40,255 nucleotides of DNA from Oscillatoriales cyanobacterium. Lineage in GTDB: Bacteria > Cyanobacteriota > Cyanobacteriia > CACIAM-69d. A program made the translations under genes and the position numbers. The stretch is from the NCBI GenBank assembly GCA_004292515.1, contig RDXB01000084.1:1-40255 (forward strand), in the 5' to 3' direction. Under the pieces are notes generated by a model, which worked only from the letters and a program-made list of their open reading frames with translations, ran no database searches and was not told the DNA's origin. Shown here in pieces: positions 35,510-37,476 of this stretch; the first letter of the stretch is position 1; every line of letters starts with the position of its first letter.

Positions 35510-35733
35510 TGTGGAAAACTCGACGATCAGCCAAAAATCTGTGGAAAACCTGTGGAAAACTGCCCATTTTCTGTGGAAAACCTGTGGAAAACTATTTATT
35601 TCTGTGGAAAACTTTTCTAAGTATAAATACCCTGTGGAAAAACCCCCCCACTTTTTCCACAGGTTTTCCACAGGCTCCGATCCTTGAAAGGTGCATGAAA
35701 TAAGGATTTTTTTGAGTTTTCCACATTTCCACA
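35510..35733. other. oriC: oriC: DnaA-box cluster
   Basis: Ten perfect copies of the cyanobacterial DnaA box TTTTCCACA. Seven are in the TGTGGAAAA orientation (starts 35510, 35540, 35551, 35572, 35583, 35603, 35633) and three in the opposite orientation (35653, 35664, 35717). An eleventh box with one mismatch is at 35725. Spacings within the first group are 30, 11, 21, 11, 20 and 30 bases, close to whole helical turns, so DnaA would bind one face of the helix. It lies upstream of dnaN, as in Synechococcus elongatus. This is the probable chromosomal origin. Confidence 0.92.
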
Positions 35734-35830
35734 GGCCCTACTACTACTATTCTTTTAAAAATAAAGGGGGAGTAGAGATCGGATAGATAAGGGGCAAAAA
35801 ATTTTTTGAAATTGGGGCAGTTTTTTGAGG
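35717..35830. other. Probable DNA unwinding element with GC block and DnaA-trio motif
   Basis: Two overlapping boxes (35717-35733) are followed by GGCC (35734-35737). Four CTA triplets follow at 35738-35749; on the complementary strand read 3' to 5' they are GAT-GAT-GAT-GAT. AT-rich DNA then runs on with TTCTTTTAAAAATAAA, AAAAAATTTTTTGAAA and GTTTTTTGAGG. This order of box, GC cluster, trio repeat and AT-rich DNA is that of the basal unwinding system described in Bacillus subtilis. Confidence 0.75.
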
Positions 35831-36026
35831 CTGACCGGATCGCTTGACATCGCCTGACTCGGATCCGGATCGGTTGGCAAGCCTCAGACCGGATTCGTTG
35901 CCAAAGCGATCGGCTCCTGAATCCCAACTCTCGAACCGCAGGATCTCGGATCGCAAGATTGCCAACTCAGGATTTCGCAGCCAACGAGCTGGATCACCGC
36001 AGCCGGGTAACTCCGCGAACCGATCA

Positions 36027-36116
36027 AACCCGGAAGGGCGATCCAGCTCGGAAACGCGATCGAACCCGGAAGGGCGATCAAACCCGGAAGGGCGATCCAG
36101 CTCGGAAACGCGATCG
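36027..36116. repeat. 18-bp tandem repeats between oriC and dnaN
   Basis: Five 18-bp units alternate AACCCGGAAGGGCGATCM and AGCTCGGAAACGCGATCG, with degenerate units continuing to about 36155. Each carries a GCGATC core. As codons they read NPEGRS / SSETRS. Confidence 0.85.
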
Positions 36117-36364
36117 AACCCCAGAAACGCGACTCAACCCGGAAGCGTGATTGCCTTCCCACGAGCTGAATCGGCTAACCCGGATTGCCCCACGAGCCGA
36201 TCGAATCTGGAGAGGCGATCGAACCGGAAAACACAGCCGGTCAACCCGTTCAACCCTGGCAAGCCCCAATGGCTGGTTAGGCCCGTTGCATTTTCCCGAA
36301 GGCTTTTGGGTTAAACTCAAAACGCCAAATTTTTGACCCCTTTCGCCCCGCCGGTCTGCGCCGG

Positions 36365-36373
36365 TTTTCCACA
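36365..36373. promoter_or_regulatory. DnaA box immediately before dnaN
   Basis: TTTTCCACA lies 7 bases before the dnaN ATG and overlaps the place of the ribosome binding site (ACAGGAA). Bound DnaA could affect dnaN expression here. Confidence 0.75.
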
Positions 36374-36380
36374 GGAACCC

Positions 36381-37476
36381 ATGAAGCTGCTTTGCGCCCA
36401 AAGCGACCTGAGTGCCAACCTTTCGCTAGTCAGCCGCGCTGTGCCGTCGCGACCGACGCACCCGGTCTTGGGCAACGTGCTGCTGACTTGCGATGCGGGC
36501 ACTCAGCGCGTGAGTTTAACCGCCTTTGACCTGAGCTTGGGTATCCAAACCAGCTTCCCGGCGGAAGTCGAAGATTCGGGGGAAATTGCCCTGCCCGCCA
36601 AGCTGTTTTCGGACATCGTGGGCAAGCTGCCCAGCGGTTCCGTGTCGCTGGATGCCAACGAGGAGTTTTCCGCCGCGATCGCCGCCCAGTCGAGCCGCTA
36701 CCAGATTCAGGGCATGAGCGCCGAGGAATTTACAACCTTGCCGGTGGTGGAAACGGGCGAGGCGGTGTATCTGCCCGTGCGCTGTTTGCCGCCAGCAGCG
36801 ACGAAACCAAGCAAATCCTGACCGGGGTGCACCTGTCGGTGGAGGCAGATTCTCTGGAGTTTGCGGCAACCGACGGCCACCGGCTGGCGGTGGTGCGGGC
36901 GGCGATGGTGGAGGAGATTGAGGGCGAACCCGAGGCGATGGAACCCTTTGCGGTGACGGTTCCGGGGCGGACGTTGCGGGAACTAGAGCGGATTTTGGTG
37001 GCACAGCAATCGAGCGAGCCGGTGGCCCTGTATTGCGATCGCGGGCAATTGGCTCTGCAATGGGGCGATTACTACATCACCAGCCGCACCTTGGAAGGGC
37101 AGTACCCGGCTTACAACCAGCTCATTCCCCGCCAGTTCGATCGCCAAGTGACCGTGGAACGCAAGCTGCTGCTGGGGGCGCTCGATCGAATCTCGGTGAT
37201 TGCCGACCAAAAAAGCAACCACATCGTCAAGTTCTCGATCGATGCGGGCAACCAGTCCCTAGCGATTTCAGCCGATGCTCAGGATGCAGGCAGCGGGCGC
37301 GAAACGATCGAATCGGCCCAGATTTCCGGCGAGGACATCGACATCGCCTTCAACGTCAAGTACCTGATGGAATCGCTGAAAAACCTGACCACACGCCCAC
37401 CAGCCCGGTGGTGATTACGCCGCTGGGGGGTGCGAAGGCGACCCACTTGGTGATGCCGGTGCAGGTACGCAGCTAG
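36381..37476 (+). pseudogene. dnaN: DNA polymerase III beta clamp, broken by two small deletions
   Basis: The sliding clamp tethers DNA polymerase to the template. The gene starts MKLLCAQSDLSANLSLVSRA at 36381 and is recognisable to its end, VITPLGGAKATHLVMPVQVR. It is read in three successive frames. After VYLPV (codon 133, ends 36779) the frame is lost; homology resumes at 36782 with LFAASSDETKQILTGVHL, so about 28 bases (the usual EALxxGLRGx) are missing. After SLKNLT (ends 37390) it is lost again and resumes at 37393 with TPTSPVVITPL, so about 22-25 bases (the EIQLQLN part) are missing. Each junction leaves two stray bases. The sum, 365 codons plus about 18 lost, matches the family length. 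An essential gene next to oriC should be intact, so assembly error, strain mixture or a second copy elsewhere must be considered. Confidence 0.85.

Follow-up and report, generated by a model that had tools for sequence, protein, structure and literature searches.

A probable basal unwinding system with four exact DnaA-trios at a Limnothrix-type chromosomal origin

Features of the DnaA box cluster beside dnaN

The window, i.e., the whole stretch of 40,255 nucleotides that was analysed, is contig C43, one of 111 contigs that make up a 3.98-Mb genome. It carries a cluster of TTTTCCACA boxes adjoining dnaN, the arrangement of a dnaN-linked oriC. Seven leftward and four rightward DnaA boxes lie between 35510 and 35733, ten of them exact copies of TTTTCCACA and one mismatched, and a further box at 36365 brings the exact copies to 11. 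The features are listed here by coordinates and strand.

35510-18, 35540-48, 35551-59, 35572-80, 35583-91, 35603-11 and 35633-41, minus strand: seven leftward DnaA boxes, exact matches to TTTTCCACA
35618-35630, plus strand: TAAGTATAAATAC, a conserved element with the palindrome GTATWWATAC at 35621-35630
35653-61 and 35664-72, plus strand: distal rightward DnaA box pair, 11 bp apart, 20/20 identical in genus and family
35717-35725, plus strand: proximal DnaA box 1, the anchor box TTTTCCACA, kept in relatives
35725-35733, plus strand: proximal DnaA box 2, (A)TTTCCACA = ATTTCCACA, with one mismatch and one base common to box 1
35734-35737, plus strand: GC spacer GGCC, identified by sequence and by its spacing in relatives
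35738-35749, minus strand: four DnaA-trios, 3'-GAT-5' four times, reading CTACTACTACTA (four CTA) on the plus strand; identified by sequence, conservation and rarity
35750-35830, no strand: AT-rich flank on the dnaN side with low-stability 60-mers, putatively the first DNA to open
36365-36373, plus strand: isolated DnaA box right before the dnaN start, an exact TTTTCCACA match
36381-37476, plus strand: dnaN (sliding clamp), interrupted by two deletions, as seen by comparison with a congener

The last two boxes of the cluster form a co-oriented tandem pair (35717-35733), behind which the short, GC-rich spacer GGCC (35734-35737) sets the four perfect triplets at a distance of 4 nt from box 2, where the published rule asks for at least three N-A-N within 16 nt of a box. 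Weaker N-A-N trios, TTC TTT, come after the four perfect ones, and the AT-rich stretch TTCTTTTAAAAATAAAG (35750-35766) gives way to a run of G and then, as far as about 35830, to mixed purine/AT-rich DNA. A preliminary description of this DNA had proposed the order of DnaA boxes, GC cluster, DnaA-trios and AT-rich DNA, which direct reading of the sequence confirms; it had also placed four GAT triplets (CTA at 35738-35749) right after GGCC, and all of its coordinates are correct. Between the origin and dnaN, a degenerate 18-bp tandem repeat (GATCGAACCCGGAAGGGC-like) occupies 36011-36220.

The dnaN gene in the window, the only copy in the genome, differs from that of the same-genus relative Limnothrix sp. 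CACIAM 69d, whose DnaN segment is 95% identical, by frameshifting deletions of 28 bp near 36779 and 25 bp near 37390. Because the only dnaN copy carries both, these deletions are probably assembly faults in the contig. The spacer in the window is 1 nt shorter than that of its congeners, and since the contig probably contains such faults, this difference may be either real or a fault of the same kind.

Exact copies of TTTTCCACA number 11 in the window against 0.38 expected, and CTACTACTACTA occurs once, where chance predicts 0.23 even with up to two mismatches; the whole 3.98-Mb genome holds it at three places. The window has 13 TTTCCACA-type boxes, and CTA repeats come after none of them but the last pair. 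With three N-A-N within 16 nt as its condition, the permissive published rule is satisfied by 14% of all window positions and so has little power by itself; the weight of evidence lies with the exact CTA run. Thermodynamic stability does not choose the trio side either: the 60-mers starting at 35740-35755 belong to the least stable 0.5% of the window, and a 60-mer from 35570, within the box array, is even less stable.

The genome encodes one DnaA, on a contig other than that of the window. The residues by which B. subtilis DnaA captures trio bases are N187, I190, I193, R202 and E228 (PMC10721633). In an alignment to PDB 8btg, all five are identical in the encoded protein, as is the arginine finger R264.

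Conservation of the trio module in relatives

The preliminary description had called for an alignment of relatives for conserved triplets, and the result bears it out: the box-spacer-CTA arrangement is kept in 5/6 family genomes, and across the 28 sampled families the spacing is near-invariant while the flanks diverge. In an alignment of the window with two congeners and one same-family genome, the block 35717-35749 is identical at 32/33 positions in the genus and 28/33 in the family, compared with 82/230 and 79/230 (about 35-36%) for the DNA at 35831-36060. The trio module is thus the best-kept non-coding block in the family. Throughout the class Cyanobacteriia, the strict pattern TTTCCACA-N4-CTANTANTA was found in 173/390 genomes and 78/160 genera, whereas the reversed control yielded about 4. 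Strict CTA is a far sharper marker than the permissive published rule. More than half of the class genomes are without the strict pattern, partly through differing boxes (TTATCCACA-type in f17; families are numbered with the prefix f) and partly through true loss. In the sister-class family f28, the trio pattern was found in 1/40 genomes, equal to the control.

Spacing was scored across about 119 sites from 28 families, which are related by descent, so that the counts are not independent. With few exceptions, 22 bp separate the first proximal box from the trios; the window has 21, because it reads GGCC where its congeners have GGGCC. Proximal boxes are spaced by 9 bp in 105/107 scored sites and by 8 bp in the genus of the window, distal boxes stand 11-12 bp apart, and the last distal box precedes the first proximal box by 53-54 bp in 91/119 sites. 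The box-to-trio spacer measures 4 nt in 119/120 trio sites, a value which the search pattern favoured, and it is also 4 nt in the unbiased dnaN-anchored set, save for 5 nt in two congeners.

Taken together, the sequence, its spacing and its conservation, and a DnaA with the needed residues, all observed in this analysis, lead us to read 35717-35830 as very probably a basal unwinding system, the origin-opening module of a Limnothrix-type chromosomal origin. As such, it belongs to an already known class.

The block lies upstream of dnaN and DnaA boxes are able to regulate genes, so it could instead be a transcriptional element, i.e., a dnaN promoter, a regulator site or a small RNA. However, about 630 bp separate it from dnaN in the window, a distance that varies in relatives, and some genomes (family f18, G089 and G179) have the pattern elsewhere than within 2 kb upstream of dnaN. 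The box polarity and the triplet repeat also fit an unwinding module rather than a promoter, and we regard transcription as an extremely unlikely explanation of the conserved block.

The DNA on the far side of the AT-rich stretch bears on a second alternative, symmetric opening, in which inverted top-strand trios would take a second DnaA filament. Plus-strand TAG repeats occur downstream in 35/119 sites, compared with 16.3 expected, with the strongest signal in f15, f8 and f26. Neither the window (p ~0.5) nor most families show this enrichment at a significant level, and beside the TAG repeats there are no boxes to seed a filament, making symmetric opening very unlikely here. As the overall enrichment rests on few lineages and is absent from the window, such mirror trios were set aside as a lead only. 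At L021, L165, L190-L192 and other f26, f15 and f8 loci, top-strand TAG repeats do face the trios across AT-rich DNA, a lineage-restricted feature.

Loss of trios and a palindrome upstream

Whether dnaA is present was scored by a PF08299 match among 336 good genomes, 13 of which have none. The trio pattern occurs in 0/13 genomes without dnaA and in 143/323 with it (Fisher p ~8e-4, ignoring relatedness). Five families (f6, f7, f11, f12 and f22) include a good genome lacking dnaA; together they contain the strict pattern in 1/44 genomes, the single match (G174) sitting away from the origin, compared with 172/346 in the remaining families. A looser pattern is found in 34/38 for f26, in 6/60 for f7 (reversed control 9/60) and in 5/49 for f6. 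At nine f7 loci (L013, L018, L022, L031, L040, L042, L044, L049 and L072) and three f10 loci (L011, L028 and L030), box clusters persist beside dnaN, but the trio position has eroded or the proximal pair has disappeared.

The preliminary description had named triplets lost while boxes are kept as the observation that would count against it. The relevant relatives do not count against it in this way. In the distant f7 and f10 such loss does occur, and we interpret it there not as a refutation but as a lineage-specific change that accompanies the dispensability of DnaA. The loss pattern fits published work in which DnaA is not required for replication in Nostoc, Synechocystis and Synechococcus PCC 7002 and the gene is missing from some relatives (PMC7198777). 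The absence of trios from dnaA-loss families, even where dnaA and boxes persist, looks new; the literature searched contained no paper linking DnaA-trio with Nostoc. Being absent from families that have lost dnaA, the strict CTA pattern is a candidate sequence signature of DnaA-dependent initiation across cyanobacteria.

The same observations bear on a further alternative, that the triplets are fossil or incidental and that AT-rich DNA and box-bound DnaA suffice to open the origin, or that it opens independently of DnaA as in Synechocystis and Nostoc. That some cyanobacteria replicate without DnaA (PMC7198777), that dnaA was not found in 13/336 good genomes and that AT-rich segments occur inside the box array too are all in keeping with it. 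On the other hand, the triplets are retained at fixed spacing while the adjoining DNA is scrambled, and they are missing in DnaA-loss families just as use by DnaA predicts, which leaves this alternative quite unlikely. Degenerate trio-binding residues in trio-less families, as a correlate of trio loss, were rejected, all residues being identical in 41 proteins. Since they are equally conserved in those families, the residues do not by themselves prove trio use, and their conservation suggests that DnaA may keep another role in these families.

Further upstream, (T)AAGTATAAATAC at 35618-35630 is palindromic and stands at a fixed distance of 117-120 bp from the trios in many cyanobacterial families. 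In the window, where a gap of 2 nt separates TAAGTATAAATAC from the leftward box at 35633-35641, this is the only copy of the palindrome element, with 0.01 expected. Either GTATAAATAC or its reverse complement GTATTTATAC is present exactly in 42/119 sites and with at most one mismatch in 54/119, covering 16/28 families; relative to the trios, 53 sites have it at -116 to -119, and one more lies at -140. With one mismatch allowed, the control windows contained 0 and 1 matches, and scrambled cores about 1 on average, with an extreme of 18. Conservation extends to features that were not selected for, namely the T and A/G bases that flank the element and its spacing to the box. Among the non-box 10-mers that precede a leftward box in the unbiased dnaN-anchored set, GTATAAATAC and the variant GTATAATTAC occur most often, and scrambled versions were not found there. 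The variant GTATAATTAC persists in the trio-less f7 origins.

Two other readings of this element were tried. A second, leftward trio set beside box 35633 (GTA TTT ATA CTT) satisfies the permissive rule in the window, but f26 has the reverse-complement reading, which breaks the triplets, and a palindrome fits better. Also rejected was a promoter reading of TATAAATAC, whose f26 form, TATTTATAC, is unlike a -10 element. Literature searches for the palindrome string returned nothing relevant and no description was found, and a palindrome beside a leftward box at a fixed distance from trios appears to be new. Because of its symmetry, we propose that the element is bound by a dimeric protein, possibly a new origin-binding factor.

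Proposed opening mechanism and comparison with known systems

By analogy with Bacillus and with in-vitro work on S. elongatus, we infer DnaA binding, strand choice, opening direction and helicase loading at the module. DnaA would bind the boxes, with the two proximal rightward boxes beside the GC spacer setting the polarity. From these, an oligomer would grow onto the bottom strand, each protomer capturing one 3'-GAT-5' triplet, and the duplex would be stretched and unpaired, starting at 35738 and progressing rightward into the AT-rich DNA that lies toward dnaN. Both the leftward array and the distal pair of boxes may raise the local DnaA concentration, possibly via a phased loop. A broader model, offered tentatively and with slightly less than even confidence, is that of a rigid origin machine spanning some 150 bp, whose trios stand at a fixed distance from a GTATWWATAC element bound by a dimeric protein that aids or times opening, and in which trios are lost before boxes or palindrome where DnaA is dispensable.

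Cyanobacterial origins are hard to find because their GC skew is often irregular, and the module provides base-resolution coordinates for putative origin opening in this phylum. What most deserves follow-up is the palindrome, together with the evolutionary loss of trios.

In Thermotoga maritima, both unwinding and single-strand binding require the TAG triplets of the oriC eTrio (PMC10316083). The window shares with it the TAG triplets, and differs in that in T. maritima a further module intervenes between the essential repeats and their nearest box.

In B. subtilis, a DnaA oligomer nucleated at a box pair captures two bases per trio on one strand (PMC10721633), and a distal box is required that is in helical phase and no closer than 44 bp (PMC6669920). 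The preliminary description had likened the window to Bacillus, which is supported, as both order and sequence match the B. subtilis module. Like the B. subtilis basal unwinding system at boxes 6/7 (PMC8287927, PMC10316083), that of the window combines a co-oriented box pair, a GC-rich spacer, bottom-strand TAG triplets and AT-rich DNA beyond, with a comparable distance to the distal box and the same DnaA contact residues. In contrast to B. subtilis, the window has the box consensus TTTTCCACA, four perfect triplets rather than six degenerate ones, and seven leftward boxes with a conserved palindrome upstream. Furthermore, its proximal boxes overlap by one base and its dnaA lies on another contig.

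S. elongatus belongs to the same phylum and likewise has a dnaN-linked oriC. The locus L211, which we take to be S. elongatus, reads TTTTCCACATTTTCCACAGCCC CTACTACTACTG. Its spacer is GCCC and its boxes stand 9 bp apart, whereas the window has GGCC and 8 bp; the GTATWWATAC element was not found in its family (f9). S. elongatus is the only cyanobacterium with reported strand separation dependent on DnaA, boxes and trios, its DnaA separating its own origin in vitro only with boxes and trios intact (PMC8287927), the two elements that the window also combines.
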